40,933 nucleotides of DNA from Campylobacterales bacterium. Lineage in GTDB: Bacteria; Campylobacterota; Campylobacteria; Campylobacterales; Sulfurovaceae. The stretch is from the NCBI GenBank assembly GCA_016937775.1, contig JAFGVX010000034.1, forward strand, positions 1-40,933, read 5' to 3'. Of the stretch, positions 2,967 to 19,176 are shown in pieces. Both the position numbers and the translations under genes were made by a program. The notes beneath the pieces were generated by a model. The model did no database searches and was not told the DNA's origin. It was given only the letters and a program-made list of their open reading frames with translations. Position 1 is the stretch's first letter. Every line of letters starts with the position of its first letter.

Positions 2967-3291
2967 TTTCAATAGATAAATCCCGCAATCATACTCAAAT
3001 AGTAAAAATATCTACATATTTTGATAAAAGTTGTTATCAAATAAGGTTAAGTCGGTAATATTTTGTATGGAATTTGCATGCAACTTGGGAAGATGTAAAT
3101 AATTTTGGGGCTGTTTTTTTATCATAATCTATATTGAAAACCCCCTTTTATTGCTATTTAATCTGTTTCACTTTGTTACAATGCATTTCAAAGAGAAAAG
3201 CGCGAGGAGATAGTTAAAATAATTTAATTATCTTTTGGATACTATTATACATCTAAAGAATGAGTACTCACGCAATAAAAAGGGGTTTTCA
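2967..3291. other. Leader/intergenic region upstream of nuoA
   Basis: A 325-base gene-free stretch, rich in structure. It has an 8-bp palindromic hairpin TTTGATAA/TTATCAAA (3020-3041), the left arm of a 22-bp inverted repeat (3133-3154), and a TACAAT hexamer (3177-3182). It also has an orphan Shine-Dalgarno-like GAGGAGAT (3204-3211), an AT-rich hairpin (3208-3233) and a short leader ORF (3260-3295). No known RNA family was recognised. Confidence 0.6.
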
Positions 3292-3293
3292 AT
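3133..3293. repeat. 22-bp inverted repeat enclosing the nuo promoter region
   Basis: The left arm is 3133-3154 and the right arm 3272-3293. They are reverse complements with one mismatch (C3145 against A3281) and a 117-base spacer. The right arm includes the likely Shine-Dalgarno sequence AAGGGG and the first two bases of the nuoA start codon. In RNA the arms would form a long stable helix that hides the nuoA start. In DNA the layout resembles an invertible segment. Confidence 0.85.
3151..3182 (+). promoter_or_regulatory. Candidate promoter of the nuo operon
   Basis: TACAAT at 3177-3182 is the best -10 match in the nuoA leader. TTGCTA at 3151-3156 could serve as a weak -35 but with a 20-bp spacer, so the -35 is doubtful. 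Transcription would start near 3189, leaving a leader of about 100 nt. The hexamer lies inside the segment bounded by the 22-bp inverted repeat. Confidence 0.35.
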
Positions 3294-3295
3294 GA
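3260..3295 (+). CDS. Possible 11-residue leader peptide overlapping nuoA start
   Basis: ATG 3260 opens an 11-codon frame ([11 protein letters not shown]) whose TGA stop (3293-3295) overlaps the nuoA ATG (3292-3294) in an ATGA arrangement typical of translational coupling. Its codons run through the right arm of the inverted repeat, so a translating ribosome would unwind that arm. The upstream ribosome site (TAAAGA) is weak. Whether it is translated is unknown, and chance is possible for such a short frame. Confidence 0.3.
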   Translation: MSTHAIKRGFQ

Positions 3296-3693
3296 CCGGT
3301 GAATTGTCGCACATTATTTCGGAACATCCATATTTTGGAGTGTTTGCATTTTTTATCGTAGCTGTTGTTGCTTTTCCTGCAACCTTGGTTCTTACAAGAT
3401 TCATCAGCAGAAAGCTTGCCAAGCTTGATAGGGAAAAGCTAAAGTTGAGTATCTATGAATGTGGTCCTGAAGTTACGAAGCAGCCAAACAGTATATCTGT
3501 ACAGTTCTATCTTGTAGCACTTCTTTTTATATTGTTTGATGTTGAGATTATCTTTATGGTTCCGTGGGCGATTGATTTTAAAGCACTTGGTTGGTTTGGT
3601 TTTGTCGAGATGGTACTTTTTATATTTTTACTTACAATCGGTTTTATCTATGCGTGGAAGAAAGGAGCTCTTGAATGGCACAACATAAAGTAA
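3292..3693 (+). CDS. nuoA: NADH-quinone oxidoreductase subunit A
   Basis: Small membrane subunit of complex I at the junction of the hydrophilic and membrane arms, 133 residues with three transmembrane helices. The loop after helix 1 has the family signature YECGPEV with its conserved cysteine (quinone-site loop), followed by [20 protein letters not shown] with the conserved acidic FDVE. ATG 3292 is chosen because it gives the normal N terminus and follows AAGGGG at six bases; a TTG-initiated extension from 3235 would add 19 atypical residues. It is the first gene of the nuo operon. Its 3' end overlaps nuoB by 19 bases. Confidence 0.96.
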
Positions 3694-4187
3694 ACTATAC
3701 ATCAAGCGCAGGCTTGCCTGTAGCATTGACAAGTATTGACAAGCTTGTCAATTGGGGAAGATCAAATTCGCTTTGGCCTTTGACTTACGGGCTAGCATGC
3801 TGTGCTATCGAGATGATGGCAAGCGGAGCTGCTCGATTTGACTTCGATAGATTCGGTACGATCTTTAGAGCAAGTCCAAGACAATCTGATGTTATGATTC
3901 TTTCGGGAACACTCTCTAAAAAACATGCAGAATTTACAAGAAGACTTTATGATCAGATGACAGAGCCGAAATGGGTCATTAGCATGGGAAGTTGTGCAAA
4001 TACCGGCGGGATGTTTAACACTTACGCGACTGTTCAGGGCGTGGATAGAATCGTGCCTGTTGATATCTATCTTCCCGGATGCGCACCAAGACCGGAAACG
4101 CTTCAATATGCGCTTATGATGCTTCAAAAGAAGATTAGAAGAGAATCAGCCAATATGAATAAAAACGTAAAACAAAGGTTTGTATAA
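3675..4187 (+). CDS. nuoB: NADH-quinone oxidoreductase subunit B
   Basis: Carries the terminal [4Fe-4S] cluster N2 that reduces quinone, in the connecting module of complex I. The 170-residue protein has the tandem cysteines of N2 in [19 protein letters not shown], a third ligand in [15 protein letters not shown] and the fourth in [10 protein letters not shown], so the full ligand set is present. A strong AAAGGAG site lies seven bases before ATG 3675, inside the end of nuoA. The stop overlaps the nuoC start by one base (TAATG), indicating coupling. Confidence 0.97.
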
Positions 4188-4969
4188 TGAGAAAATATAC
4201 ACCAAAAGATACGCTCCAAAAGAAAGCTTACTATACCGATAGATTTTGGGTCGCTCCTAGAGTGCCTCGAGATGAAATCAAAGAAGAGACTCACTTCGCC
4301 GATGTTGTTAAAACGCTTCAAAAATATGTTAGTGAGAGTTATGTTGAACTTGGACAGCTCGTATTGCATATCAAGCCAAAGGATAATTTGGCAGTGCTAG
4401 AGTTGCTTAGAGATAAGTGTGGGTATGCGATGTGTAGTGAGCTCAGTGCAGTTGATTATTTGGCACAAAGCGGAGAGTTCGAGATATTTTATCAGATGCT
4501 CAATCTTACTTTGGCAAAAAGAGCACGAGTCGTATGCCGCATCAAACAAAACGAGTCCATAGAATCTATCGTACCGCTTTTTAAGATGGCAAATTTTGCA
4601 GAGCGTGAGATGTTTGATATGTTTGGTATTTATGTCAATAATCACCCCTACCTCAAACGTATTATTATGCCCGATGATTGGAGCGGACATCCATTACTTA
4701 AAACTTATCCGTTGCAAGGTGATGAGGCTGCCTCATGGTATGAAGTCGATAAGATATTCGGCAAAGAGTATAGAGATATCATCGGTCCTGAAAATAGAGA
4801 TCCCGCTAAGGTAGATAGATACGATACACAAAGATTTTCACGAGTCGGTTATGAGGTGCCGTTCGGTGCTGATCCAAGCGTAGAGGCAGAGGCTAAAGAG
4901 ATCGAATATAGTAAGACCGCTTTTGTCAATTATCAAAAAAAGCCAAAACAGCTTAAAAAGAAAAGATAG
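4187..4969 (+). CDS. nuoC: NADH-quinone oxidoreductase subunit C
   Basis: Peripheral subunit of the complex I connecting module, 260 residues, with no cofactor. The 30-kDa-subunit signature is clear in [16 protein letters not shown] and [12 protein letters not shown]. NuoC and NuoD are separate genes here, unlike the fused NuoCD of E. coli. Residues 200-260 form a charged tail ending in a lysine cluster (PKQLKKKR), longer than in many homologues. It starts at the TAATG overlap with nuoB; the stop is eight bases before nuoD. Confidence 0.95.
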
Positions 4970-4977
4970 GATTAGCC

Positions 4978-6204
4978 ATGCAAGTTACTACTAAATTAAC
5001 ACCATTTTTTGAGAACTTAAACTTTGAGCGTGAAGGCAACACTATGGTCATTAACTTCGGACCGCAACATCCTTCTGCTCACGGTCAGCTAAGACTTGTA
5101 CTTGAGCTTGACGGCGAGCAGGTTGTGAAAGCCCTTCCGGATATCGGCTATCTCCACAGAGGCGTTGAGAAGATGGCGGAAAATATGACCTATAATGAAT
5201 TTTTGCCAACAACAGATAGACTTGATTATATCGCTTCAACTTCAAATAATTATGCGTATGCAATAGCCGTTGAAAAACTTTTAGGGATAGAGGCTCCAAG
5301 ACGTGCACAGGTTATCAGAACGATGTTACTTGAACTTAATCGTATCATGTCGCATCTCTTTTTTCTTGCAACACATGCGCTTGATGTCGGGGCAATGAGT
5401 GTCTTTTTATATGCATTTAGAGAAAGGGAGTATGCAATGGATTTAATGGAATCCTATTGCGGAGCGAGACTTACTCATTCGGCTGTTCGTATAGGCGGTG
5501 TGCCTCTCGATTTACCTACGGGTTGGCTTGTTGAACTTCAAGCATTCTTAGAGAAAATGCCTGAGAACATCAAGCTCTATGAGGATCTTTTAACCGAAAA
5601 TAGAATTTGGAAAATGCGACTTGAGAATGTCGGTGTTATTTCTGCCGAGGATGCACTTTCTTGGGGCTGTACGGGTCCTATGCTTAGAGGTTCGGGCGTT
5701 AAGTACGATATTAGAAAAGAGGAGCCTTATGAACTTTACGGAGAGTTGGAGTTTGATGTTCCTGTGAGTGATCGATGTGATAGTTATGGGAGATATAGAC
5801 TCTATATAGAAGAGATGAAACAATCTGTAAAAATACTTCATCAGCTTATCCCTATGCATGAAGAGAGTGAGCCACAGTTGATGGCGCACGCTCCTAAGTA
5901 CATCTCCGCTCCAAAAGAAGAGATTATGACGCAAAATTATGCACTCATGCAGCATTTTGTCTTAGTTACACAAGGGATGCGACCGCCTAAAGGGGAAGTG
6001 TATGTGCCTACAGAGTCACCAAAAGGAGAACTCGGGTTTTACATCAAATCAGAGGGGGAGCCGTATGCATATAGACTTAAATGCAGAGCGCCGAGTTTTT
6101 TCCATACGGGGCTTTTACAAAAGATGTTGGTCGGATCGTATTTAGCCGATGTTGTTACGATTATAGGAAGTACCAATATCGTATTTGGTGAGGTTGACAG
6201 ATGA
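4978..6204 (+). CDS. nuoD: NADH-quinone oxidoreductase subunit D
   Basis: The 49-kDa-type subunit, derived from the large subunit of NiFe hydrogenases, which with NuoB forms the quinone-reduction site. Its 408 residues match family length. Hallmarks are [20 protein letters not shown] near residue 30, with the quinone-site histidines, and [20 protein letters not shown]. The C-terminal block [17 protein letters not shown] ends with VFGEVDR; the usual terminus of this subunit reads [14 protein letters not shown] precedes ATG 4978 by six bases. The stop overlaps the next gene by four bases (ATGA). Confidence 0.97.
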
Positions 6205-6434
6205 AAAGATATGATTTAAGAGATTTGCATAAAGATTTCTATAAAAGAATGATAGAACTTATTGATAGTGATCTAAGTGGTGGAGAAGTAGGCATATTTC
6301 TTTTTGAGATCGGTGATTTTTCTTCTGTGCAAAAGAGTGCGGATATTATTAAAAAGCATAAGCATGAGCTTTTAAATTCGCTTAAGTTCAATGAAGTTGA
6401 TTGGACGATAGTAATTAGGAAAAAGGCTGATTAA
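6201..6434 (+). CDS. NuoE-position mini-subunit (HP1264/Cj1575c-like), no cysteine
   Basis: A 77-residue soluble protein in the slot where nuoE lies in other bacteria. Its size and position match the small Campylobacterota subunits HP1264 of Helicobacter and Cj1575c of Campylobacter, recalled from those gene orders rather than aligned. It contains no cysteine, so it cannot bind the [2Fe-2S] cluster N1a of classical NuoE. Visible blocks are [20 protein letters not shown] and [15 protein letters not shown], suggesting a small alpha/beta fold. It overlaps nuoD by four bases and the next gene by one base, so it is translated with the complex. It probably anchors or modulates the replaced electron-input module. 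Confidence 0.8.
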
Positions 6435-8446
6435 TGTCTAAGACTATTTTCTCAACCTGGAGGGATGAATTTGTTGACAATAGATACCTAAGCGGTAATA
6501 CTTGTCAAGTTTCATCTTTCAAATTGCCAAGAGATTATAGTGTCGATAAAAAATCAAAAGCATTTATAGGCTGGGACGGTGTTGCGATATTTGATGAGGA
6601 TGTCGATGTTGTAAGGCTTGCATGTGAGTATGCTGCGCAGTATCAAAAATATTCTGAAGCCTGCGGAAGATGTGCACCGGGAAGATGGGGTGGACGTATT
6701 TTGTATGATCTGCTAGATAAGATAGCAAGAGGCGAAGGTTCACAAGCAGATATCGAACACCTTAAAGAGGTGAGTGAGACGATGATGATAACATCAAAAT
6801 GTGAGATAGGACGAACGACACCGAAGCCTATTTTGGATCTGATTGAACACTATAGAGAAGAGTTTGATATACTTATCGAAAAGCAGATACCTTCAAAAGA
6901 TTATACAAATGAAGATATAAATTATATCGCAAAAGTAACCGCTCCGTGTATGGATATGTGTCCTGCGCACGTTGATATACCTGCATATATCGAAGGTGTA
7001 CGTGATATGCAGTTTGATAAATCTTTACAATCAACAAGACAAACAATGCCTTTGGCGCATACTTGCGGAAGAGTATGTCCACATCCTTGCGAAGATGCGT
7101 GTCGTAGAGCAAATCTTGATGAGCCTATCTCTATCATGGAGCTTAAACGTATCGGGGCTGATTTTGAAACGGATCACTCTTTGCCGTGGCAACATCCAAA
7201 AGAGCCTCAACCATTTCGAAATGACGGAAAAAAAGTAGCGATTATCGGAGCAGGTCCCGCAGGACTCACGGCAGCGTATTATCTTGCGCTTGAAGGGATA
7301 AAGGTTGATATCTTTGAAGAGTTACCGGTACTTGGAGGTGAGGTTGCCGTTGGAGTACCTGAATATCGGATGCCGATCGAAAAATACAACAAAGATATAC
7401 AGCTTGTTACTTCAATGGAAGCCGTGGATGTTTATACAAATACAAGAGTGGATGCAGCAAAACTTAAAGAGCTTGATAGCGAGTATGATGCGACGCTTTT
7501 GGCATTTGGCACACGGCTTTCTAAAAAAGTAAGAGCCGAGAATGAACGCTTAGATATGGAAGGATATTGGGGTGCTATAGCGATGCTTGATAAAGTAAAT
7601 TTATGGCACAAATATCGCATAGGTTCTCCTGTAAGTGAAGATCTTAAAGATAAGGTTGTCGTTTGTGTGGGTGGTGGCTTTACATCGATGGATGTCGTAC
7701 GATGTGCCGTAAGAGAGGGTGCAAAAAAAGTCATTATGCTCTATAGAAGAGACGAGAAAACGATTATTAGAAATACGACTTATGAGGAGTATCATGAGGC
7801 TGTTGAAGAGGGTGTTGAATTTATCTTCCACTCAGCCGTTGAGCGAATATTTGATGAAGACAACAAACTTAAAAAATTACTCATTAATAGATTTGAGCTT
7901 GTTCCTTCTCCTCAGGGTGGCAGAGCAGAGCTTGTAAAGATAGAGGGAGGAGATTTTGAGATAGAGTGTGATTATCTCATTCCCGCCGTTTCTCAATCGG
8001 CCGATTTGACATTGTTGCCAAAGGAGTGGGATATAGAACTTACCTCTTGGGGAACATTGCAAACTAACGGTAAAGATTATATGACATCACGTCCAGGACT
8101 TTTTGCGGCGGGTGATTGCGAATATGGTCCAATGACGATTGTTAATGCGGTTGGTCAAGCCAAAAGAGCAGCTTCTGTGATATCAAGATATATCTATAGC
8201 GGAACAATCAGTCTCAATGATGATGAGATTATGGAAGATCATCTCAGAGAGTTGAATGTTTATGATAAAAACGAGAAGATTACAGGCTGGATGCAGGAAC
8301 AACCAAGAGAGCAGAGTAAAAAACTCTCAGTCGCCCAAAGAGTTGACAACAATAAAGAGGTCAATTTGGGCTTTAGTGGAGAAGAAGCACTTGCTGAGGC
8401 ACAACGGTGTATGCGATGTTACTATATATCGATGGCGGTGGTGTAG
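6434..8446 (+). CDS. NuoF-like Fe-S region fused to GltD/NfnB-type FAD-NAD(P) oxidoreductase
   Basis: A 670-residue hybrid in the nuoF slot. Residues 43-145 resemble only the C-terminal Fe-S part of NuoF (SEACGRCAPGRWGGR, later TSKCEIGRTTPKP); the FMN/NADH-binding domain of NuoF is absent. The N3-type motif has C77, C80 and C123, but Gly83 replaces the third cysteine. Residues 165-245 are a GltD-type N-terminal domain with C172, C176, C211, C215, C219 and C223 (HTCGRVCPHPCEDACRR). An FAD fold follows (GAGPAG 272-277), then an NAD(P) fold (GGGFTSMD 413-420, YRR 437-439), FAAGDCEYGP, and a final RCMRCYY. The YRR arginines suggest NADPH. It probably feeds electrons into complex I, or accepts them, in place of NuoF. 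Confidence 0.85.
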   Translation: MSKTIFSTWRDEFVDNRYLSGNTCQVSSFKLPRDYSVDKKSKAFIGWDGVAIFDEDVDVVRLACEYAAQYQKYSEACGRCAPGRWGGRILYDLLDKIARGEGSQADIEHLKEVSETMMITSKCEIGRTTPKPILDLIEHYREEFDILIEKQIPSKDYTNEDINYIAKVTAPCMDMCPAHVDIPAYIEGVRDMQFDKSLQSTRQTMPLAHTCGRVCPHPCEDACRRANLDEPISIMELKRIGADFETDHSLPWQHPKEPQPFRNDGKKVAIIGAGPAGLTAAYYLALEGIKVDIFEELPVLGGEVAVGVPEYRMPIEKYNKDIQLVTSMEAVDVYTNTRVDAAKLKELDSEYDATLLAFGTRLSKKVRAENERLDMEGYWGAIAMLDKVNLWHKYRIGSPVSEDLKDKVVVCVGGGFTSMDVVRCAVREGAKKVIMLYRRDEKTIIRNTTYEEYHEAVEEGVEFIFHSAVERIFDEDNKLKKLLINRFELVPSPQGGRAELVKIEGGDFEIECDYLIPAVSQSADLTLLPKEWDIELTSWGTLQTNGKDYMTSRPGLFAAGDCEYGPMTIVNAVGQAKRAASVISRYIYSGTISLNDDEIMEDHLRELNVYDKNEKITGWMQEQPREQSKKLSVAQRVDNNKEVNLGFSGEEALAEAQRCMRCYYISMAVV

Positions 8447-8448
8447 TG

Positions 8449-10725
8449 ATGGTAAAGAAGAGCGATATGGCACAATATGTAAATATAACCATTGACGGTA
8501 AAAATTGCATAGGCAAGCAAGGCGATACTATACTTCAAATCGCAAGAGCAAATGATGTTTATATCCCAACATTATGTTATCTTAGTAAAGTGAAGCCGAT
8601 TGCATCATGTAGAATGTGTCTTGTGGAGATACAAGGTTCTGAAGGAGTAGTGCTCTCATGTCAAGAGAGAGCTGTGGAAGGTACCGTTATTACAACCGAT
8701 AGTAAAATGCTTTACAAGCATAGACAAAATATCATGAAGCTCTTTGGCGTCAATCATCCGCTTGAGTGTGGCGTATGTGATAAAAGTGGAGAGTGTGATC
8801 TACAAAATAAAACTTTAGAGTTTGATGTAGCAACACAAAATTTTTGCGCGAAAGAGTCAGATAAAAAGGTTGAGAATTGGGGGTTTATAAGCTATGATCC
8901 TTCTTTGTGTATCGTCTGTGAAAAATGTGTACGTATTTGCAATGAGATCGTAGGTGAGAGCATACTTGAAGTGGCAGTCGGCGGATATAAATCAAGGATT
9001 ATCAATACAAACAAAGAGGCTGATTGTAGCAATTGTGGCGAGTGTATGGCGGTTTGTCCCGTGGGAGCTCTTACAAATAGTGAATTTAAATATAGCTCTA
9101 ATGCGTGGGAGCTTGAGCGAATTCCGGCAACATGCGTACATTGTAGCAGCGGATGCCCGCTTTACTATGAGGTAAAGCCTTCAAGTACTGCAAATAGAGA
9201 AGAGAGTATCTATAGGGTGACAAATCCGTTTGAATTTAGTTCGCTTTGTGGAGCCGGACGATTTGCTTATGATTTTGCCAACAAAGATGCGAAGAAAGAC
9301 AAAGAAGCTTTTACAAGGGCACTTAAGGCATTTGAGGGAGCAAAAAGCATACGCTTTAGTGCAAATATTACTAATGAAGAGGCACTTATTTTACAAAAAC
9401 TTAAAGAGAAGAAGGGCTATAAACTCATCTGTGATGAGGCAAGAAATTATCAAAAATTTTTGGCTGCTTATAGTATGGTAAGCGGAAAAAGTCTCTATAG
9501 TGGTGATCTTGCAACGCTTAAAGATTCCGATGCAATTATAATCTTTGGAACACGTATCAATGATGATAATCCGATGGTCAAATATCATATATCTATGGCG
9601 AGTAAATGGCATAGAGCAAGAGTGGCATATTTGCACCCCATGGAAGATGTGAGTATGAGCAAGATTGTAACACAATTTATCAAATATGAAGTTGGGAGCG
9701 AAGAGGGCGTTGTGGCACTTTTAGCAAACGCATTTTTGAGTGATTTAAGACTCTCTGATGCCGTAAAAGAGTATCTAGAGTCTTTAGATGTAGGTAATTT
9801 AAGTGCAGAGAGTAATGTCGGCGAAGAGGAGCTTGAAGGGTTGGTAAACTCTTTTGAGAAAAAAAATACTTTCTCATTTGTCATAGGAGCTGATTTGTAT
9901 GCGCATCCAAGAGCTCAAGAGATAGCAAAAGTGCTTGCACTTTTCGAGAAGTATCTAGATTGTAATGTGATACTTACTCCGCCGGCAAGTAACGCTTTGG
10001 GTGTTGCTTTGATATGTAATCTTGATGATGAAGATGTCAATGAACAGAGTATAGGTTACAATGTAAAAGGTGATTTTACATTAGGCTCTTTAGGCGAAGT
10101 TGATCTAGATATGCCTGCGCTTAATCAGCAAGAAGGAACGCTCACTACCATAGATAAACGCGTGGTTGCTACACATGTTGCGCTCCCCTTTGGTGGTTAT
10201 GTGCTTAACGATATAGCAAATGCATTAGGATTGGAAACAGAATATACGATTGATTATACAAAAGAGCTTCCAAAAAGAAGCGGTTATAAAGCAGTTGAAT
10301 TTGATACATTGAATCATGAATTTTCAAAAGAGGGGAATGATATAAGAGGATATCTGCTTGAGACTAAAGATGTAAAAATCGATGAAATATTTGAAGAGAT
10401 AGAAGAGCTTCCCGCATATGACGGGGGTGTCGTTTATTGGTGTAATGAGGGGATACATTTTACATATAATACACTCTATAAATATCCTGCAAGTAAATAT
10501 CTTAAAGGCTCAAAACAGTTTGCCGTAGCTATGAAAATAAGTGACGGGGAGGAGCTTATTTTTGAAAATGAAAAGAGGCAGTATAGGCGAATTTTTAAAC
10601 TTGATGAAACGATGAAGGGAACGATAGCAATAACCTCAAGCGTTACGGAGCCACTCGAGGTATCAAGTTTTAAAAATTACAGATATACTTTGATGAAATT
10701 ACAAGAGGACGGGGTAATTAGATGA
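8449..10725 (+). CDS. nuoG: NADH-quinone oxidoreductase subunit G, first copy
   Basis: Fe-S subunit that wires electrons from the input module to NuoI, 758 residues. Motifs in order: a [2Fe-2S] ferredoxin-like domain (CYLSKVKPIASCRMCLVE, then LSC), the His-Cys3 cluster (HPLECGVCDKSGEC), two [4Fe-4S] motifs (CIVCEKCVRIC and CSNCGECMAVC), and the N7-type CVHCSSGC with a distal cysteine in SLCGAGRF. A degenerate molybdopterin-oxidoreductase domain follows. ATG 8449 is two bases after the preceding stop (TAGTGATG). ATG 8467, with MAQYVNITIDG, is an equally good alternative. It is paralogous to the next gene and overlaps it by four bases. Confidence 0.92.
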   Translation: MVKKSDMAQYVNITIDGKNCIGKQGDTILQIARANDVYIPTLCYLSKVKPIASCRMCLVEIQGSEGVVLSCQERAVEGTVITTDSKMLYKHRQNIMKLFGVNHPLECGVCDKSGECDLQNKTLEFDVATQNFCAKESDKKVENWGFISYDPSLCIVCEKCVRICNEIVGESILEVAVGGYKSRIINTNKEADCSNCGECMAVCPVGALTNSEFKYSSNAWELERIPATCVHCSSGCPLYYEVKPSSTANREESIYRVTNPFEFSSLCGAGRFAYDFANKDAKKDKEAFTRALKAFEGAKSIRFSANITNEEALILQKLKEKKGYKLICDEARNYQKFLAAYSMVSGKSLYSGDLATLKDSDAIIIFGTRINDDNPMVKYHISMASKWHRARVAYLHPMEDVSMSKIVTQFIKYEVGSEEGVVALLANAFLSDLRLSDAVKEYLESLDVGNLSAESNVGEEELEGLVNSFEKKNTFSFVIGADLYAHPRAQEIAKVLALFEKYLDCNVILTPPASNALGVALICNLDDEDVNEQSIGYNVKGDFTLGSLGEVDLDMPALNQQEGTLTTIDKRVVATHVALPFGGYVLNDIANALGLETEYTIDYTKELPKRSGYKAVEFDTLNHEFSKEGNDIRGYLLETKDVKIDEIFEEIEELPAYDGGVVYWCNEGIHFTYNTLYKYPASKYLKGSKQFAVAMKISDGEELIFENEKRQYRRIFKLDETMKGTIAITSSVTEPLEVSSFKNYRYTLMKLQEDGVIR

Positions 10726-13184
10726 ATCAAAATGAAGTGAAGATCAAGATTGACGGCGTTGAATGTATAGCTAAAGAGGGTGAGTATATACTCAATATTG
10801 CAAGAGCAAACGGTATATATATTCCTGCTATTTGTTATATCAGCAGATGCTCTCCTACGCTTGCTTGCCGTATATGTCTTGTCGAGGCTGACGGTAAAAG
10901 GGTTTATGCATGTAATGCAAAAGCAAAAGATGGTATGGACGTCACAACAAGTAGTGAAGAGATACTTGAAGAACGAAAAGCGATTATGAATGTTTATGAT
11001 ATAAATCATCCCCTTCAGTGTGGCGTTTGCGATCAAAGTGGAGAGTGTGAACTACAAAATTATACTCTTGAGCTTGGCATCGATTCACAAAACTATGCAA
11101 TTCTGGACTGCAAAAGAGAGAGCACAAACTTTAGTAGTGTATTACATTATGATCCGGGTCTTTGTATCGTATGTGAACGTTGTGTGACAATCTGTAAAGA
11201 TATGGTCGGAGATAATGCGCTCTCAACAGGACCTAGAGATGGAGCTGAGATTGATAAAGAGCTCAAAGAGAGTATGCCAAAAGATGCATATGCCATGTGG
11301 AATAAACTGCAAAAATCTCTCATCGTACCAAGTAATGGGACTGATCAGACAAACTGTAGTGATTGTGGTGAGTGTCTTTCTGTGTGTCCTGTAGGTGCGC
11401 TTGTAAGTAGAGATTTTGTTTATAGTTCTAATGCGTGGGAACTTAAACGCATTCCCGCAACCTGCTCACATTGCAGTAGCGGATGCCAAATATTTTACGA
11501 GACGAAACCAACCTCTATTAGTGACAGAAGCGATAAGATATATAGAGTGACCAATGAGTGGAACTATGTATCACTTTGTGGTGCAGGACGTTTTGGATAT
11601 GACTTTGAAAATAGCAGTGCCACAAAAGACGAAAAGCAGTTTGCAAAAGCGATTATAGCGTTAAAAGAAGCAAAAGCAATTCGATTTAACTCAATTATTA
11701 CAAACGAAGAAGCAGCAATGCTACAAACTCTTAAAAAAGAACTCGGACTCAAACTTATCAACCCCGAAGCAAAAGCATTCCAAAGCTTTTTGAGAGATTT
11801 TGAAAGTTACCGCGGAGAGACTCTTTATAGAGGAAACTATAAAGAGATGATGAGCGAGAGCAACTTCATCATCAGTGTAGGCAGTGCACTCAGACATGAT
11901 AATCCGAATGTGCGCTATGTTTTCAACAACATTCAAAAGCTCAATAAAGGAGCAGGACTTTATTTTCATCCGGTAGGTGATACACTCATAGAGTCACTCG
12001 GTAAAAATGTTACACCTATTTATCATAATGCAGGTTTGGAGGAGTATGCACTCTATCTCATCCTTGATCTTTTTGCATCAAAAGAGGAGCTTCCAAAAGA
12101 GATAAGAACATATCTTGAGAGCTTCCATAAAAAAAGTACGAAAATAGTTAAAGAGACCATAATGGAAGATATCACAGAGACGGTTGTTGATGAAGAGACA
12201 GGTGAGAGTAAAGAGGTTACAAAGAAAAAACCGAAAATAGTTGAAAAAGAGGTTGAATATATAGAAAACGGATTGGCAACACTTTTGAATGCCCCCGAAG
12301 GATTTGATGATATATTTGAAAAGATGACGGCAAAAGCAGATGATTTTTCTATGGTTGTAGGAGAAGACTTCTATGTACATCCACGTGCTGAAAATCTCGT
12401 AAAGCTCTTAGCGCTTATCGAAAAATATACGCAGATAAAAATAGCACTTATCCCGCCAAAAACAAATTCTTTAGGTGTTGCGCTTATTTGTGATCTTGAT
12501 GAAAAAACAGATGGATACACCATAGGTTACAATGAAAACGGCGATTTTAGATTGAGTGCGCTTGGTGATGGGGATTTGGATATGCCTGCGCTTAACCAAC
12601 AAGAGGGAACATTTACCAATATGCATAAAAGAGTCGTGCCGACAAATGCCGCACTTTCATATGAGGGTTATGAACTTAATGATATCATGAATGCTCTAGG
12701 ACTCGGTGAACGATTAAGTGTTGATTGGACAAGTAAACTTCCTGTAAGAAAAGGTTTTGAAGCTCTCTCTTTTGATGCACTTCCAAACGGTTTCACAAAT
12801 GCAGGCGAAGAGCTTAGAGGCTATATGCTTAAACAAAAAATAAGCAAACCAAAAGATTATGAAGTTGAAAAACCAGATGAGAGCATTCAACTCAAAGGTG
12901 ATGTAGCCTATAGATGCAATCCGCAAAGACAGTTTAATGATTTCACAAACAAGGCACATCAAATCTCTGAACCGTTTGCTTTGTATGTGAGCGAGGAAAA
13001 AGCTCAATCTTTAGGCACAAAAGTAAAAGTCGAAATAGGGAATATTTCTCTTGAGCTTCCTGTCGCGGTGGACAATAAGATGAGTGGTGATGTAGTAAAA
13101 ATCCCGGATTTTTTAAGTTCAAAAGATGTCTATTCTCTTTTTGACAAGGGAAGATTTAAACAAGTTAAGATAAGCGAGGTATAA
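10722..13184 (+). CDS. nuoG: NADH-quinone oxidoreductase subunit G, second copy
   Basis: Second NuoG paralogue, 820 residues, with the same cluster ligands: CYISRCSPTLACRICLVE, HPLQCGVCDQSGEC, CIVCERCVTIC, CSDCGECLSVC, CSHCSSGC and SLCGAGRF. It differs from the first copy by about 28 extra residues between the two [4Fe-4S] motifs (around 165-195) and by a lysine/glutamate-rich insert around residues 470-515. Both copies share LDMPALNQQEGT and NDI..ALGL in the C-terminal half, showing a tandem duplication. ATG 10722 overlaps the TGA of the first copy. Whether both sit in one complex or define alternative ones cannot be told from sequence. Confidence 0.92.
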   Translation: MNQNEVKIKIDGVECIAKEGEYILNIARANGIYIPAICYISRCSPTLACRICLVEADGKRVYACNAKAKDGMDVTTSSEEILEERKAIMNVYDINHPLQCGVCDQSGECELQNYTLELGIDSQNYAILDCKRESTNFSSVLHYDPGLCIVCERCVTICKDMVGDNALSTGPRDGAEIDKELKESMPKDAYAMWNKLQKSLIVPSNGTDQTNCSDCGECLSVCPVGALVSRDFVYSSNAWELKRIPATCSHCSSGCQIFYETKPTSISDRSDKIYRVTNEWNYVSLCGAGRFGYDFENSSATKDEKQFAKAIIALKEAKAIRFNSIITNEEAAMLQTLKKELGLKLINPEAKAFQSFLRDFESYRGETLYRGNYKEMMSESNFIISVGSALRHDNPNVRYVFNNIQKLNKGAGLYFHPVGDTLIESLGKNVTPIYHNAGLEEYALYLILDLFASKEELPKEIRTYLESFHKKSTKIVKETIMEDITETVVDEETGESKEVTKKKPKIVEKEVEYIENGLATLLNAPEGFDDIFEKMTAKADDFSMVVGEDFYVHPRAENLVKLLALIEKYTQIKIALIPPKTNSLGVALICDLDEKTDGYTIGYNENGDFRLSALGDGDLDMPALNQQEGTFTNMHKRVVPTNAALSYEGYELNDIMNALGLGERLSVDWTSKLPVRKGFEALSFDALPNGFTNAGEELRGYMLKQKISKPKDYEVEKPDESIQLKGDVAYRCNPQRQFNDFTNKAHQISEPFALYVSEEKAQSLGTKVKVEIGNISLELPVAVDNKMSGDVVKIPDFLSSKDVYSLFDKGRFKQVKISEV

Positions 13185-13185
13185 G

Positions 13186-14196
13186 ATGGATCCATTGATT
13201 TTAGGAACGATTATAAAAATAGTTTTGGTTCTTGCAATTGTTTCAGCATTAGCCGGATTCGGTACATATTTGGAGCGAAAAGTACTTGCATATATGCAAC
13301 GCCGTATAGGTCCTGCGCATGTTGGACCTTTTGGGCTACTTCAAATAGTTGCTGATGGGATTAAACTATTGACAAAAGAGGATATCATTCCGCAAAATGC
13401 AAATAGATTTATATTTATGATAGCGCCCGCAGTTACTGCAGCGACTGCATTTATAGCACTCTCGGCCGTTCCACTTTTTCCTACATTTACAATTCCTGAG
13501 TATTTTCCGCTTGTGGGTGGAGCTATTGTCCCCTCAACCATTTCGGATATTAGCATAGGGATACTGTTTTTACTCGGTGTGATGGGTTCCGGACTCTATG
13601 GCCCGCTTTTAGCAGGTATGGCACAGGCAAATAAGTGGGGGATTTTAGGTTCAGCAAGAACAGCGGTTCAATTTTTGAGCTATGAAGTTATCACGGGGCT
13701 CTCTTTGCTTGCTCCTATAATGCTTGTGGGATCACTTTCGCTCATCGATTTTAACAATACGCAAATAGGTGGCGTAGGTTCATGGATTATATGGCAACAA
13801 CCGGTTGCGTTTGTACTCTTCTTGATAGCCGGTTTTGCAGAGACCAACAGAACACCGTTTGACCTTTTGGAACATGAAGCAGAGATTGTCTCAGGGTATG
13901 CTACGGAGTATAGTGGTATGCGATGGGGTATGTTCTTCATTGGTGAATATGCAAATATGATTACGATTTCGCTTATGGCTTCTATTATATTTGTCGGTGG
14001 ATATGCACCGCTTGGATTTATCCCTGGTTGGATAGCGATTTTACTTAAGGTGACATTTTTCTTTTTCTTGATGCTGTGGGTAAGGGCTTCTTGGCCACAT
14101 GTAAGACCTGACCAGTTGATGTGGTTTTGTTGGAAAGTTTTGATGCCTATAGCAGTTATTAATGTAGTAATCACCGGTATTGTGGTGATGATATGA
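13186..14196 (+). CDS. nuoH: NADH-quinone oxidoreductase subunit H
   Basis: Membrane subunit that lines the quinone-entry tunnel at the heel of complex I, 336 residues with about eight transmembrane helices. Diagnostic segments are ERKVLAYMQRRIGPAHVGPF in the first cytoplasmic loop and AETNRTPFDLLEHEAEIVSG, whose acidic residues sit near the quinone channel; ESELVAG is the more common form of the latter. It starts one base after the nuoG stop (TAAGATG). Its stop overlaps the nuoI start by four bases. Confidence 0.97.
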   Translation: MDPLILGTIIKIVLVLAIVSALAGFGTYLERKVLAYMQRRIGPAHVGPFGLLQIVADGIKLLTKEDIIPQNANRFIFMIAPAVTAATAFIALSAVPLFPTFTIPEYFPLVGGAIVPSTISDISIGILFLLGVMGSGLYGPLLAGMAQANKWGILGSARTAVQFLSYEVITGLSLLAPIMLVGSLSLIDFNNTQIGGVGSWIIWQQPVAFVLFLIAGFAETNRTPFDLLEHEAEIVSGYATEYSGMRWGMFFIGEYANMITISLMASIIFVGGYAPLGFIPGWIAILLKVTFFFFLMLWVRASWPHVRPDQLMWFCWKVLMPIAVINVVITGIVVMI

Positions 14197-14807
14197 ATGG
14201 GGATGTAGAGATGAATGAAAAACAAAGATATATAACACTGGATCTAGGTGGTGCTCCTATGACACCGTGGTGCCGATTTAAAAGAGTTGTAAAAAGAACA
14301 TTTAGGATAGAGCTCTTTATTGGTCTTTGGGTCACCATTAGAGAGATGTTTAAAACTCTTTTTATGGGTAAAAGTCACACGACAAAATACCCTTTTGAAA
14401 AGATGCCTATTTCTTCAAGATACCGCGCGATACATGATATGCTTCGGTTGCTTGAAAGCGGACATTATAGATGCATAGGGTGTGGACTTTGTGAAAAGAT
14501 ATGCATATCAAATTGTATCGCAATGGAGACACGATATGATGAAAATCAAAGAAAAGAGGTAAGCGGATATACTATCAATTTCGGTCGATGTATCTTCTGC
14601 GGATATTGTGCTGAAGTTTGTCCTGAGCTTGCTATCGTTCATGGTGCACGTTATGAAACTGCAAGTGAGCAAAGAGCGAGCTTTTCTCTCTTTGAGGATA
14701 TGCTTACACCGATAGACAAACTCAAAGAACAAAAAGAGTTTGAAGGATATGGTGCTCCGAGTCCTTGGGCAGATAAAAATATCAAAAAAACGCCTTTAGC
14801 GTACTAA
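14193..14807 (+). CDS. nuoI: NADH-quinone oxidoreductase subunit I
   Basis: Ferredoxin-like subunit carrying N6a and N6b, passing electrons from NuoG to NuoB. The 204-residue protein has the motifs CIGCGLCEKICISNC and CIFCGYCAEVCPELA; in the first, the usual Pro after the fourth cysteine is Ile. The N-terminal helices around residues 30-60 (FIGLWVTIREMFKTLFMG) are amphipathic and attach to the membrane arm. ATG 14193 overlaps the nuoH stop (ATGA). ATG 14211 would give a protein six residues shorter starting MNEKQRY and is a fair alternative. Confidence 0.95.
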   Translation: MNGDVEMNEKQRYITLDLGGAPMTPWCRFKRVVKRTFRIELFIGLWVTIREMFKTLFMGKSHTTKYPFEKMPISSRYRAIHDMLRLLESGHYRCIGCGLCEKICISNCIAMETRYDENQRKEVSGYTINFGRCIFCGYCAEVCPELAIVHGARYETASEQRASFSLFEDMLTPIDKLKEQKEFEGYGAPSPWADKNIKKTPLAY

Positions 14808-14821
14808 AGTGAGGAGCTGAT

Positions 14822-15406
14822 ATGTTTGAACAAATTGCATTTTATTTTTTCTCTGCGGCAACAGTCGTTTTGTTTTTAATCACGGCATTTAGTAAAAATG
14901 TACTTTATGCGATGAGTGCGCTTGCTGCGGGAATGGTTATGATATCCGGCTTTTTCTTTCTACTCGATGCTGATTTTTTAGGTGCTGTGCAGCTTATAGT
15001 CTATGTAGGGGCAGTAATGGCATTGTATGCATTTGGGATGATGTTTTTTGATGCAACCAAGGATGTCAAAGAGAAAAATGCACCTTCGTATCTTGTTGTT
15101 TTGCTCGGAGGACTCTCAGCGTTGCTTTTAGTTGTAATGTTTGCAGCACCGATTTTGGGATCAAATATCGAAGCTTCATACCCACCAATCGAAGGAATCA
15201 GCAACCCTAAGTCTGTCGGATTGGTGCTTTTTACAAAATATCTCATCCCATTTGAGGTAGCCGCACTTATGTTACTTGTAGCAATGATTGCAGGCATCAT
15301 ACTTGCCGGTAAAAAAATGGATATCTCATTGACGGATATAGAAGAGGATATTGCAATATCCGAAGAAGAAGAGATGAGCTTAGATGAAAAGGATGGGGAA
15401 AAATGA
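14822..15406 (+). CDS. nuoJ: NADH-quinone oxidoreductase subunit J
   Basis: Membrane-arm subunit next to NuoA and NuoK, 194 residues with five predicted transmembrane helices. Helix 3 region reads GAVQLIVYVGAVMALYAFGM, the conserved segment that includes the pi-bulge helix of complex I. The C-terminal tail (residues 170-194) is strongly acidic (DIEEDIAISEEEEMSLDEKD) and cytoplasmic. GAGGAG at 14811-14816 precedes ATG 14822 by five bases, one of the clearest ribosome sites in the operon. It overlaps nuoK by four bases. Confidence 0.95.
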   Translation: MFEQIAFYFFSAATVVLFLITAFSKNVLYAMSALAAGMVMISGFFFLLDADFLGAVQLIVYVGAVMALYAFGMMFFDATKDVKEKNAPSYLVVLLGGLSALLLVVMFAAPILGSNIEASYPPIEGISNPKSVGLVLFTKYLIPFEVAALMLLVAMIAGIILAGKKMDISLTDIEEDIAISEEEEMSLDEKDGEK

Positions 15407-15705
15407 TAGGATTAAATCACTACTTGATAGTATCGGGATTGCTTTTCTCGATAGGTTTGATGGGTGTTATTAGAAGAAAAAATCTTTTAATGCTTTTTTT
15501 CTCGACAGAGATTATGCTCAATGCAGCCAATATCGCTTTTGCTGCTGCAAGTTATTTCTATAATGATCTTGCCGGACAGATGTTTGCATTTTTTATTGTT
15601 GCTATTGCAGCAAGTGAGGTTGCGGTTGGGCTAGGGCTTTTGATCCTAATATACAAAAAGAACGGTACGCTTGATCTTGATGATCTTGCTACAATGAAAG
15701 GGTAG
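15403..15705 (+). CDS. nuoK: NADH-quinone oxidoreductase subunit K
   Basis: Small three-helix membrane subunit (100 residues) with homology to MrpC; it contributes a proton pathway. The conserved buried glutamates are visible in FFSTEIMLNAANIAF and IAASEVAVGLGLLI. The stop is two bases before the nuoL start. Confidence 0.96.
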   Translation: MIGLNHYLIVSGLLFSIGLMGVIRRKNLLMLFFSTEIMLNAANIAFAAASYFYNDLAGQMFAFFIVAIAASEVAVGLGLLILIYKKNGTLDLDDLATMKG

Positions 15706-15707
15706 GT

Positions 15708-17618
15708 ATGGAAAATCTTGTATATATTGCACTTTTTGCACCGTTTGTCAGTTCACTTTTTGCACTGATGTTTGTCATGGTGCCTAAACAGACATTTGTC
15801 GGGATTGTGGCGTCTATGCTATTGTTCATATCATTTTTGGCCTCTTCTATATTGGCGTATCATATTGTGATGACCAATGAAGTGATTTATGTAAGGATGA
15901 TGGACTGGATTGTTGTCGGTAATCTCTCCATTCCTTTTGGATTCGTAGCAGACCATGTGAGTGTGACGATGATGGTTGTTGTGAGTTTGGTTTCAACCGT
16001 TGTACATATCTACTCTATAGGCTATATGGATCACGATAGAAGTTTCAATAGATTCTTCTCTTATCTTTCCGCATTTGTTTTCTCTATGATGGTGCTAGTG
16101 ATGAGCGATAATTTTGCAGGACTCTTTATAGGCTGGGAAGGTGTCGGCGTGTGTTCATGGCTACTTATCGGTTTTTGGTATCACAAAAAAGATGTTACAA
16201 GAGACATTAATCCGTCTATCTCTCCTTCTTGGGCCGCCAATGAAGCATTTATCATGAATCGTATTGCCGACCTTGGTATGCTTGTAGGGATTTTTATCAT
16301 CTTTTGGAATACGGGTTCACTACAATATGATGTTGTGTTTCCAAAACTCTCAGAGATAGCGGTTATATCTCCTGAGATTCTGATCACTGCGGCGATTGCA
16401 CTTTTTATTGGTGCGATGGGGAAATCAGCACAATTCCCACTTCATACTTGGTTGACTGATGCGATGGAGGGGCCAACACCGGTTTCTGCTCTTATTCATG
16501 CGGCAACCATGGTTACCGCAGGTGTATTTTTAGTCATTCGTGCCAATCCTCTTTTTGGAATGGAAGAAGTCGCAGGAGTAAGCTATTTCATCGCTTCGCT
16601 TGGAACATTTGTGGCATTTTTTGCAGCATCTATGGCGCTTGTCAATAGAGACTTGAAACGAATCATCGCGTTTTCAACACTCTCTCAACTTGGATATATG
16701 TTCGCAGCAGCAGGTCTTGGTGCATATTGGATAGCACTCTTTCACCTGGCGGCACATGCATTTTTTAAAGCGCTTCTCTTTTTGGGCGCAGGAAATGTTA
16801 TGCATGCCATGCATGATGAGCTTGATATCTTTAAGATGGGTGGTTTACGTAAAAAAATGCGATGGACTTGGGGCTATATGGGGCTTGCCTCTTTGGCACT
16901 TGCGGGCATATGGCCACTTGCCGGATTTTACTCAAAAGATGCAATTATAGAGAGTGCATTCAATGAAGGAAATCTAATTCTTTGGGCGATGCTTGTAATC
17001 ACAGCAGGAATGACAGCATTTTATAGTTTTAGACAGGTCTTTTTGACTTTTCATGGTGATGAGCGTTATAAAGAGTTTGGGATCCATCCGCATGAGATGT
17101 ATAAGTATGTGCTCATAGGAATGAGCCCACTCGCGATTTTAGCCGTAGTGGCAGGATGGGGAAAAGATTGGTTTGAAGGTTTTGTGACAAATTTATTGCC
17201 TGCATATAAGATGAGTGAGCATACACATCATTTGGTGACAACACTCACTATCATAGTCTCCGTATTTGCCGTAAGTGGTATACTCATTGCGGCATTTAAA
17301 TATATACGAGGACTCAAAAGAAGTGAAAAGATGGAAAATAGTTTTATCTATAGACTTTTAGCAAACCAATACTATATACCGCAACTTTATGCCGAGATGA
17401 TATCAAAACCGTATGCAGAACTTTCAAATATATTTTGGAAAAGCATAGATATGAAAATTGTAGATGCCACTGTTGATGCAATAGCAAATATAGTATATAA
17501 GAGCGGTGATGGATCGAGAAAGATGCAAAGCGGTAATCTATCAAATTATTTAGCATGGATGACTTTTGGCGCAGTAGCACTACTTATTGCTGCTTTGATC
17601 TCATCGGTTTTAGGGTAA
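15708..17618 (+). CDS. nuoL: NADH-quinone oxidoreductase subunit L
   Basis: Distal antiporter-like proton-pumping subunit, 636 residues, with about 14 core helices followed by a C-terminal extension for the long lateral helix and final anchor. Key segments are GWEGVGVCSWLLIGFWY (conserved Glu of helix 5), GAMGKSAQFPLHTWLTDAME (conserved Lys of helix 7), TPVSALIHAATMVTAGVFLV, and FSTLSQLGYMFAA with the helix-8 to -12 region. Full length suggests a functional subunit. ATG 15708 follows GGTAGGT. Confidence 0.97.
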   Translation: MENLVYIALFAPFVSSLFALMFVMVPKQTFVGIVASMLLFISFLASSILAYHIVMTNEVIYVRMMDWIVVGNLSIPFGFVADHVSVTMMVVVSLVSTVVHIYSIGYMDHDRSFNRFFSYLSAFVFSMMVLVMSDNFAGLFIGWEGVGVCSWLLIGFWYHKKDVTRDINPSISPSWAANEAFIMNRIADLGMLVGIFIIFWNTGSLQYDVVFPKLSEIAVISPEILITAAIALFIGAMGKSAQFPLHTWLTDAMEGPTPVSALIHAATMVTAGVFLVIRANPLFGMEEVAGVSYFIASLGTFVAFFAASMALVNRDLKRIIAFSTLSQLGYMFAAAGLGAYWIALFHLAAHAFFKALLFLGAGNVMHAMHDELDIFKMGGLRKKMRWTWGYMGLASLALAGIWPLAGFYSKDAIIESAFNEGNLILWAMLVITAGMTAFYSFRQVFLTFHGDERYKEFGIHPHEMYKYVLIGMSPLAILAVVAGWGKDWFEGFVTNLLPAYKMSEHTHHLVTTLTIIVSVFAVSGILIAAFKYIRGLKRSEKMENSFIYRLLANQYYIPQLYAEMISKPYAELSNIFWKSIDMKIVDATVDAIANIVYKSGDGSRKMQSGNLSNYLAWMTFGAVALLIAALISSVLG

Positions 17619-17628
17619 GGGAGAGAGA

Positions 17629-19176
17629 ATGGATAATATTTTAAGCGTGTTGATATTTTTTCCGGCGATTGCAGGATTGCTTGGATTTGTAATTGATAAA
17701 AATAGTATAAGAGCGTATGGCATCAGTGTAACTGTGATTGAGTTTGTACTTTCTCTCGTTTTGTGGGCGAGTTTTGACGGGACGAGTGCAGCAATGCAGT
17801 TTGTTGAACTTGTTCCAATCGTGCCTGATTTTGGGATAAGTTATTATGTTGCAGTCGATGGAATCAGTCTTTTTTTAGTTATTATGACAACGCTTATGAC
17901 ACTTATCGGAATTATTAGCATGAGCGTAAAGAGTGAGATTAAAAATATGGTCATTACCCTTCTCTTTTTGGAAATGACGATGATTGGTGTATTTGTTACA
18001 TTAGATGTGATAGTCTTTTATCTCTTTTGGGAGCTTTCATTGGTTCCAATGCTCTATATCATCGGCGCATGGGGCGGACCGCTTAGGGTTTACGCAGCTA
18101 TAAAATTCTTTTTATATACTTTTACAGGCTCTCTTATTATGCTTGTGGGTATCCTCTTTTTAGCTTTTACATATCATGATGCTATGGGTGGTTATGATAA
18201 TGTTGGTGTATGGAGCTTTGCTCTGACTGATTGGTATCAGTTGAAGTTGGATGTTGATGTGCAGCTATGGCTTTTTGCAGCATTTTTTATCGGCTTTGCC
18301 ATTAAAGTTCCGATGTTTCCCTTTCACACATGGTTGCCGTATGCGCATGGGCAAGCACCGACTATCGGTTCAGTTATACTTGCGGCTGTGCTTCTTAAGA
18401 TGGGGACATACGGATTTGTGCGATTTTCTCTCCCGCTCTTTCCTGATGCTTCGGTGATGATGATTGTTCCTATTGCAGTTATTGCTATTATTATGATTAT
18501 CTATACGGCAATGGTTGCCTATGCACAAGAAGATATCAAGCAGGTCATTGCGTATTCTTCAGTATCGCATATGGGGATTATCATGCTTGGTGCATTTGCT
18601 ATGAATACGCAAGGGATTAGCGGTTCGATATTCCAAATGCTCGCACACGGTATCGTCTCGGGCGCACTGTTTATGCTTGTTGGAATGTTGTATGATAGAA
18701 GGCATACGAAACTCATGAGTGAGTTTGGTGGTCTCGCGCTTGTGATGCCACGTTATGCGATGATATTTGGTATCATGCTTATGGCATCGGTCGGATTGCC
18801 ACTTACTATGGGATTTGTAGGAGAATTTTTAGTACTTATAGGCTTCTATAATGTATCGCCGATATTGACAATCTTAGCAGGTACCTCAATTATCGTCGGA
18901 GCTGTATATATGCTCTCTCTTTTCAAAAAAACATTCTTTGGTGAGCTTACCAATGAAAAAAATAAAAATCTTCTCGATCTTGATGCAAGAGAGACATTTT
19001 CGCTTGTACCGCTTGTACTTATAGTGATTTGGTTAGGGGTTTATCCAACGCCAATACTCAAACCTATAGATGTTTCTGTTGCAAGTATGTTAGAGCTTAT
19101 GGAGGCAAAGGCAACAAAACCGAAAACAAAAGAATTTATTGCTTCAATGCGATCAGATAATAAGGAGGAGAACTAA
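17629..19176 (+). CDS. nuoM: NADH-quinone oxidoreductase subunit M
   Basis: Second antiporter-like proton-pumping subunit, 515 residues with about 14 transmembrane helices. The conserved glutamate is in FYLFWELSLVPMLYIIGAWG and the helix-7 lysine in GFAIKVPMFPFHTWLPYAH. AYSSVSHMGIIMLG and GFVGEFLVLIG are further NuoM-type blocks. A GGGAGAG ribosome site precedes ATG 17629. The stop shares one base with the nuoN start (TAATG). Confidence 0.97.
   Translation: MDNILSVLIFFPAIAGLLGFVIDKNSIRAYGISVTVIEFVLSLVLWASFDGTSAAMQFVELVPIVPDFGISYYVAVDGISLFLVIMTTLMTLIGIISMSVKSEIKNMVITLLFLEMTMIGVFVTLDVIVFYLFWELSLVPMLYIIGAWGGPLRVYAAIKFFLYTFTGSLIMLVGILFLAFTYHDAMGGYDNVGVWSFALTDWYQLKLDVDVQLWLFAAFFIGFAIKVPMFPFHTWLPYAHGQAPTIGSVILAAVLLKMGTYGFVRFSLPLFPDASVMMIVPIAVIAIIMIIYTAMVAYAQEDIKQVIAYSSVSHMGIIMLGAFAMNTQGISGSIFQMLAHGIVSGALFMLVGMLYDRRHTKLMSEFGGLALVMPRYAMIFGIMLMASVGLPLTMGFVGEFLVLIGFYNVSPILTILAGTSIIVGAVYMLSLFKKTFFGELTNEKNKNLLDLDARETFSLVPLVLIVIWLGVYPTPILKPIDVSVASMLELMEAKATKPKTKEFIASMRSDNKEEN

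Follow-up and report, generated by a model that had tools for sequence, protein, structure and literature searches.

Tandem NuoG paralogs in the complex I operon of Campylobacterota: a probable NAD(P)H-linked add-on module and its apparent remnant, NuoY

Two intact NuoG proteins are encoded back to back in the nuo operon of a Sulfurovaceae genome (1.49 Mb; closest named relatives are Sulfurovum MAGs), a result confirmed far beyond chance. The initial annotation had described a tandem, diverged nuoG pair within one operon, and this description holds: both copies (hereafter G1 and G2) score above the cut-off of the NuoG model NF006305, they are about 50% identical, and their reading frames overlap by 4 bp (ATGA). 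G1 follows a hybrid protein (hereafter HYB), and the two together probably form an NAD(P)H-linked add-on to a Campylobacterota-type complex I, chained to G2, its core NuoG. The window, i.e. the whole stretch of DNA analyzed here (40,933 nucleotides), contains the operon in the order nuoA-B-C-D, a 77-aa protein, HYB, G1, G2 and nuoH-I-J onward, and the genome has a single NuoD-type gene. The features of the operon are:

3235..6204, + strand: nuoA, nuoB, nuoC and nuoD, core complex I (Pfam Oxidored_q4, Oxidored_q6, Complex1_30kDa, Complex1_49kDa)
6201..6434, + strand: 77-aa small subunit in the place of NuoE, HP1264 ortholog (PDB 2LXR, E 2.4e-25 over 76 aa)
6434..8446, + strand: HYB, a NuoF N3-type Fe-S domain (aa 74-145) joined to a GltD-like FAD/NAD(P)H oxidoreductase (aa 169-588) (PF10589, PF14691, PF07992)
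8449..10725, + strand: NuoG1 (G1), 758 aa, full-length NuoG paralog (NF006305, 847.6 bits)
8575..9057, + strand: Fe-S core of G1, with N1b C43,54,57,71; His103/C107/110/116; N4 C154,157,160,203; extra 4Fe-4S C164,193,196,199 (ortholog alignment)
9682..9831, + strand: G1-type scaffold motif KYEVGSEEGV...LDVGNLSAESNVGEEE (consensus of G1, stump and G2 alignments)
10722..13184, + strand: NuoG2 (G2), 820 aa, core NuoG (NF006305, 1100.5 bits)
10833..11387, + strand: Fe-S core of G2, with N1b C38,49,52,64; His96/C100/103/109; N4 C148,151,154,222; extra ferredoxin-type 4Fe-4S C158,212,215,218 (99-100% conserved in 135 G2)
11241..11309, + strand: G2-specific insert of ~23 aa inside the ferredoxin domain, consensus KExMPKDAYAMWNKLQKSLI (G1/G2/NuoG alignment)
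13186..20666, + strand: nuoH, nuoI, nuoJ and other membrane-arm subunits (ORFs; NuoI with 4Fe-4S domains)

The G1 reading frame is open from 8407, and its 758 aa are counted from the ATG at 8449; the true start of nuoA may be an ATG near 3292.

Both proteins clear the curated cut-off (591 bits) of NF006305 (“NADH-quinone oxidoreductase subunit G”, PRK08493, Campylobacter type), and both fall below threshold with the general NuoG equivalog TIGR01973 (cut-off 470; G1 220.7, G2 176.2). By the latter model they appear to be divergent NuoGs, yet with a complete ligand set. Identity between them runs from 47% (aa 6-470) to 51% (aa 532-739). As the initial annotation had it, every Fe-S ligand including N7 is seen in both window copies, with full sets for N1b, the His/Cys3 site (N5), N4 and N7. 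Four further cysteines complete an 8-Cys di-cluster ferredoxin-like domain, i.e. an extra [4Fe-4S] site, which is present in a Rhizobium plasmid NuoG and missing from that of E. coli. The AF2 model of G1 (pLDDT 79.6) matches FDH, HydA and complex I NuoG in Foldseek (E 1e-35 to 1e-27).

Across 89 G1 and 135 G2 orthologs, the N1b, His/Cys3 and N4 ligands are 100% conserved. Because N7 is lost from 37% of G2s, with no relation to the presence of HYB, it is weak functional evidence when taken alone; N7 as a link between G1 and G2 was rejected, being lost from G2 in some HYB-containing operons and kept in some HYB-less ones. About 55% of G1s retain the extra cluster and about 45% have lost it (missing in 40 of 67 Sulfurovaceae copies), and G2 retains its core ligands and nearly always its extra cluster with HYB present or not. 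The ~23-aa insert is found in G2s with or without HYB and is absent from G1 and from E. coli, Rhizobium and short NuoGs; its K, D and W residues are near-invariant, and it may be where G1/NuoY or ferredoxin/flavodoxin docks.

G1 and G2 are both under purifying selection, with G1 usually evolving faster and less constrained: pairwise dN/dS in HYB-containing operons is 0.05-0.17 for G1, 0.03-0.14 for G2 and 0.01-0.07 for HYB. A G1 form lacking the Fe-S wire, found in the Sulfurovum AR clade, gives 0.22-0.28. It is extremely improbable that G1 is a redundant or decaying duplicate. Its faster evolution, the Sulfurovaceae losses of the extra cluster and the few MAG copies that are split would be in keeping with decay, but such a reading is already contradicted by the invariant core ligands and the low dN/dS, and G1 has been present in many families since before their split. 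The claim that neither copy is decayed is thereby borne out, and the relaxed selection in one copy that had been raised against it is not seen in dN/dS, though G1 is usually the faster. In two loci (L018, L060), G1 lies in two adjacent ORFs, which probably reflects a frameshift or sequencing error.

The subunits upstream of G1 occupy the places of NuoE and NuoF. Based on its match to 2LXR, the 77-aa subunit is an ortholog of H. pylori HP1264 and fills the NuoE slot; HP1264 is reported to bind FMN (PMC6269979). In the N3 domain of HYB, three of the four canonical cysteines remain: C77, C80 and C123 are invariant in 90 orthologs, and the third canonical position is a glycine in 90/90 (CGRCxPG), so the cluster predicted there may be unusual, absent, differently ligated or of a 3Fe-4S type. 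The NuoF FMN/NADH domain (PF01512) was found in 0 of nine HYB-containing genomes, that of the window included, with the same search positive in 9 of 14 controls; these nine genomes have one NuoD each, apart from remote homologs in four. A relationship to GltD points to NADPH, and suggests that NADPH may be the substrate of HYB. HYB may not be the sole NAD(P)H link, given that an FqrB-like oxidoreductase gene is located elsewhere in most HYB-containing genomes checked. FqrB as a replacement confined to HYB-less genomes was rejected, since it occurs in most genomes of both kinds. In a HYB-less Sulfurovum clade, the HYB slot (loci L043 and L051, 5322-6338 in each, minus strand) holds a reverse-strand gene for a 338-aa NAD(P)H flavoprotein resembling ferredoxin-NADP reductase/FqrB, and a gene 65% identical to it lies near a second nuo operon on contig C9 of genome G208.

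We surveyed 397 Campylobacterota genomes/species from 68 genera, and HYB was found in 126 genomes and 33 genera, including 29 of the 30 genomes of the window's own family. All 126 carry a G1-type Fe-S domain; in the three with one match only, contig breaks fall in or near G1. A second NuoG Fe-S domain in HYB-less genomes was traced to unrelated NuoG genes of 470-510 aa elsewhere or to contig fragments, and rejected. Two genomes, of families f6 (G008; L166) and f10 (G056; L167), have another nuo operon with a short NuoG (478-504 aa) that lacks the extra cluster. In a genus of family f2 (g46; L156, L157), nuoG2-nuoH stands without adjoining nuoA-D, small subunit or HYB, and the nuo operon seems split. 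The order A-B-C-D-HYB-G1-G2-H-I-J is seen in 53 of 80 related loci, the remainder being mostly cut by contig ends, and median gaps in 88 operons are +1 bp (HYB-G1), -4 bp (G1-G2) and +2 bp (G2-H). G2 is universal, occurring in all operons of this complex I type examined.

The chief argument for a functional pairing of HYB with the Fe-S half of G1 is that no operon keeps one of them alone. Among 70 nuo operons from 12 families, the two occur together in 41 and are jointly missing from 29, with 0 discordant. On a tree built from NuoB, C, D, H and I, this state changes 8 times, and 7/7 independent contrasts agree (p 0.016). Their joint loss is weaker proof of pairing because HYB adjoins the Fe-S half of G1, and one deletion can remove both.

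In HYB-less operons, the slot is occupied by a 230-350 aa protein that aligns colinearly with two regions of the G1 HMM (about 350-510 and 635-752; best E 1e-65) and only weakly with G2. This stump has a median of 5 cysteines vs 23 in G1 and G2, and profile-profile comparison gives E 4e-61 against G1 vs 6e-26 against G2. It retains the G1 motif KYEVGSEEGV...LDxGYLSAESNVGEEE, listed above for the window as KYEVGSEEGV...LDVGNLSAESNVGEEE; neither the G2 of the window nor the G2 consensus shows this motif. Six stump examples matched no family in Pfam and had at most weak NuoG matches in NCBIfam, none over cut-off. The possibility that the short protein in the NuoF slot is the N-terminal (Fe-S) part of G1 was rejected, given its scarcity of cysteines and its match to the C-terminal half. 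In one operon (L115), the small protein is identical to HP1264 at 76/76 residues, and its neighbor, a 339-aa stump, is therefore HP1265 or a near-identical ortholog; Cj1574c fills the same operon slot (PMC4178425, PMC6682613). By these matches, the NuoF replacement HP1265/Cj1574c (NuoY) is identified as a cysteine-poor C-terminal stump of G1 from which the Fe-S half is gone. An intermediate form occurs in one clade within Sulfurovum (Sulfurovaceae), where a 448-480 aa protein comprises all of G1 past residue ~280 and no Fe-S half; its AlphaFold model (pLDDT 85) has formate dehydrogenases and NuoG as structural matches. The initial annotation had placed the double NuoG beyond the known NuoE/F replacement. 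The stump matches point the other way: the double NuoG is the fuller form, and the H. pylori/C. jejuni replacement a trimmed version of it.

Phylogenies of the paralogs, a check proposed along with the claim of two functional copies, support an early split. In the tree of N-terminal domains, G2s form a single clade with support 100, a mosaic copy (L092) excepted, and G1s lie outside it, with the same families represented on both sides; the G1/G2 duplication therefore predates those families, in a tree whose outgroups are distant and whose root is unsure. A recent duplication of NuoG was accordingly rejected, with the same reservation on outgroups and root. The L092 protein, an 806-aa ORF in the G1 slot (G387 C77), has a G1-type N-terminus and nearly equal overall G1/G2 scores (1076/1120 bits), and from its sequence appears to be a G1/G2 mosaic, the product of either misassembly or gene conversion. 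One Sulfurovaceae MAG has a second nuo operon (L155, on the G208 contig noted above) whose NuoY groups with Sulfurospirillaceae-like f10; this operon represents either contamination or transfer. MAG quality touches such single cases (L092, L018, L060, L155). In the tree of C-terminal domains, Helicobacteraceae-like f2 stumps fall among f2 G1s and Sulfurovum stumps among Sulfurovum G1s (long branches, details unsure). Since stumps nest with G1s of their own family, the tree points to several independent trimmings. Full-length G1 is probably older than the stump, because a stump cannot regrow a G1-type Fe-S domain.

The persistence of the stump also bears on whether HYB and G1 belong to complex I at all. 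It is quite unlikely that HYB and G1 merely share the operon and make up a soluble oxidoreductase of their own, akin to Stn, Nso or Nfn. Such an enzyme would be consistent with the solved structures nearest to HYB, which are Nfn, Stn and GltD chains, and with the sequence relatives nearest to G1, which include the hydrogenase HydA. However, in all families with HYB and G1, complex I genes flank the two, the G1 stump is still found in HYB-less operons, and the C. jejuni stump is reported to mediate transfer from flavodoxin to complex I (PMC4178425).

The initial annotation had left a choice between two alternative input arms and a chained arm joined to the NuoF/GltD hybrid. The link to the hybrid stands, and the chained arm is favored: G2 is kept everywhere, the Fe-S half of G1 tracks HYB, and the G1 scaffold persists. 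With alternative arms, HYB-linked G1 and ferredoxin/flavodoxin-linked G2 would compete for one NuoI/NuoC site, giving two kinds of complex I per cell. We regard this arrangement as unlikely. The same core wire is present in G1 and G2, and two NuoGs are matched by a single NuoD and presumably a single NuoI, as competition for one site would have it; against it, translational coupling joins G1 to G2 in almost all operons, no lineage was found with G1 but without G2, and the C-terminal domain of G1 stays beside G2 after loss of the wire, which suggests that both sit on the complex together.

In the favored chained arm, electrons would move between NAD(P)H and the GltD-type FAD of HYB, and from this flavin through the Fe-S centers of HYB to the G1 wire (N1b/N5/N4), then to the G2 wire, NuoI, NuoB and menaquinone, coupled to proton pumping along a reversible path. 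HYB would be docked on G1, and G1 on G2 by its C-terminal domain. G2 must serve NuoI, since it is the sole wire of complex I in many lineages, and from these lineages G2 is expected to be in contact with NuoI/NuoC/NuoD in the peripheral arm. G2 would also accept electrons directly from ferredoxin/flavodoxin, necessarily so in G2-only lineages, where flavodoxin is the reported donor (PMC4178425, PMC6682613). The near-universal extra ferredoxin-type cluster of G2 would be the obvious electron port. Loss of HYB from a lineage would be accompanied by loss of the G1 Fe-S half, leaving the C-terminal docking scaffold as NuoY. Physical chaining, NADPH over NADH, the direction of flow and ferredoxin/flavodoxin entry at G2 are points that we infer.

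In the organism of the window, an rTCA autotroph, the module would probably also run in reverse, with quinol and proton motive force driving the formation of NAD(P)H. ATP-citrate lyase is found in 103 of 126 HYB-containing vs 16 of 271 HYB-less genomes, an association that fits reverse electron flow in rTCA autotrophs; the exceptions are 23 genomes with HYB and no lyase, and 16 of the converse. Families f2 and f5 have HYB but no lyase, and the association with autotrophy is therefore not a strict requirement. It is very doubtful that this is a con-/bifurcating complex I, in which the GltD-type FAD of HYB would split electrons between ferredoxin (via the extra cluster of G2) and quinone or NAD(P)H. 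In its favor, bifurcation in Nfn takes place at GltD/NfnL-type subunits, the extra ferredoxin-type cluster of G2 is nearly universal, and rTCA autotrophy requires reduced ferredoxin as well as NAD(P)H; but ordinary GltD has the same fold and does not bifurcate, the N3 domain is altered, and the ferredoxin site is putative. Rather improbable, too, is the broader version of this idea: a proton-pumping complex I that has two electron ports and an arm with two NuoGs, whose GltD-type flavin in HYB would bi-/confurcate between NAD(P)H, ferredoxin (at the extra G2 cluster) and menaquinone, and of which the H. pylori/C. jejuni enzyme would be a stripped-down single-port descendant.

The replacement of nuoE/F in Campylobacterota complex I was already known (PMC4178425, PMC6682613), and the double NuoG is a variant of this complex. 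The “nuoXY” complex I (Cj1575c/Cj1574c, HP1264/HP1265) resembles the window operon in operon slot, FMN-binding small subunit (2LXR) and G2-type NuoG, and neither has NuoE or a NuoF FMN domain. They differ in that the NuoY slot of the window holds HYB and a full G1 with a complete Fe-S wire, whereas NuoY corresponds to the C-terminal half of G1 only. Canonical NADH complex I (E. coli, Thermus) shares the core subunits and the NuoG wire (N1b/N5/N4, N7), but has a single NuoG, takes in NADH at the FMN of NuoF and, in E. coli, has a NuoG without the extra 4Fe-4S site. Sporomusa-type Nfn (Stn) and Nso likewise combine GltD-like and NuoG-like parts with a NuoF-type N3 domain; unlike the window system, they are soluble, with GltD fused to NuoG and with NuoE-like and FMN-binding NuoF-like subunits (PMC7483475). 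In the window, GltD is fused to the N3 domain and there is no PF01512, which sets it apart from Stn/Nso. The NUO-2 of Nitrospina gracilis, proposed to reduce ferredoxin by reverse electron transport, also has a NuoG with N1b, N4, N5, N7 and one extra 4Fe-4S, but it is a second, scattered complex whose NuoF2 keeps the NADH-binding domain and has no FMN site (PMC3578206), and it does not have two NuoGs in one operon with one NuoD. A literature search returned no description of a double NuoG in Campylobacterota or of NuoY as a NuoG remnant; subscription journals were mostly beyond its reach, and an earlier mention is possible.

The operon may provide a concrete architecture for the link between NAD(P)H and complex I in rTCA sulfur/hydrogen oxidizers, in which NuoE and NuoF are missing. 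Because it is the remnant of the C-terminal domain of a NuoG paralog without the Fe-S half, Cj1574c/HP1265 more likely serves as a docking scaffold than as a carrier that relays electrons from flavodoxin to complex I through Fe-S clusters.
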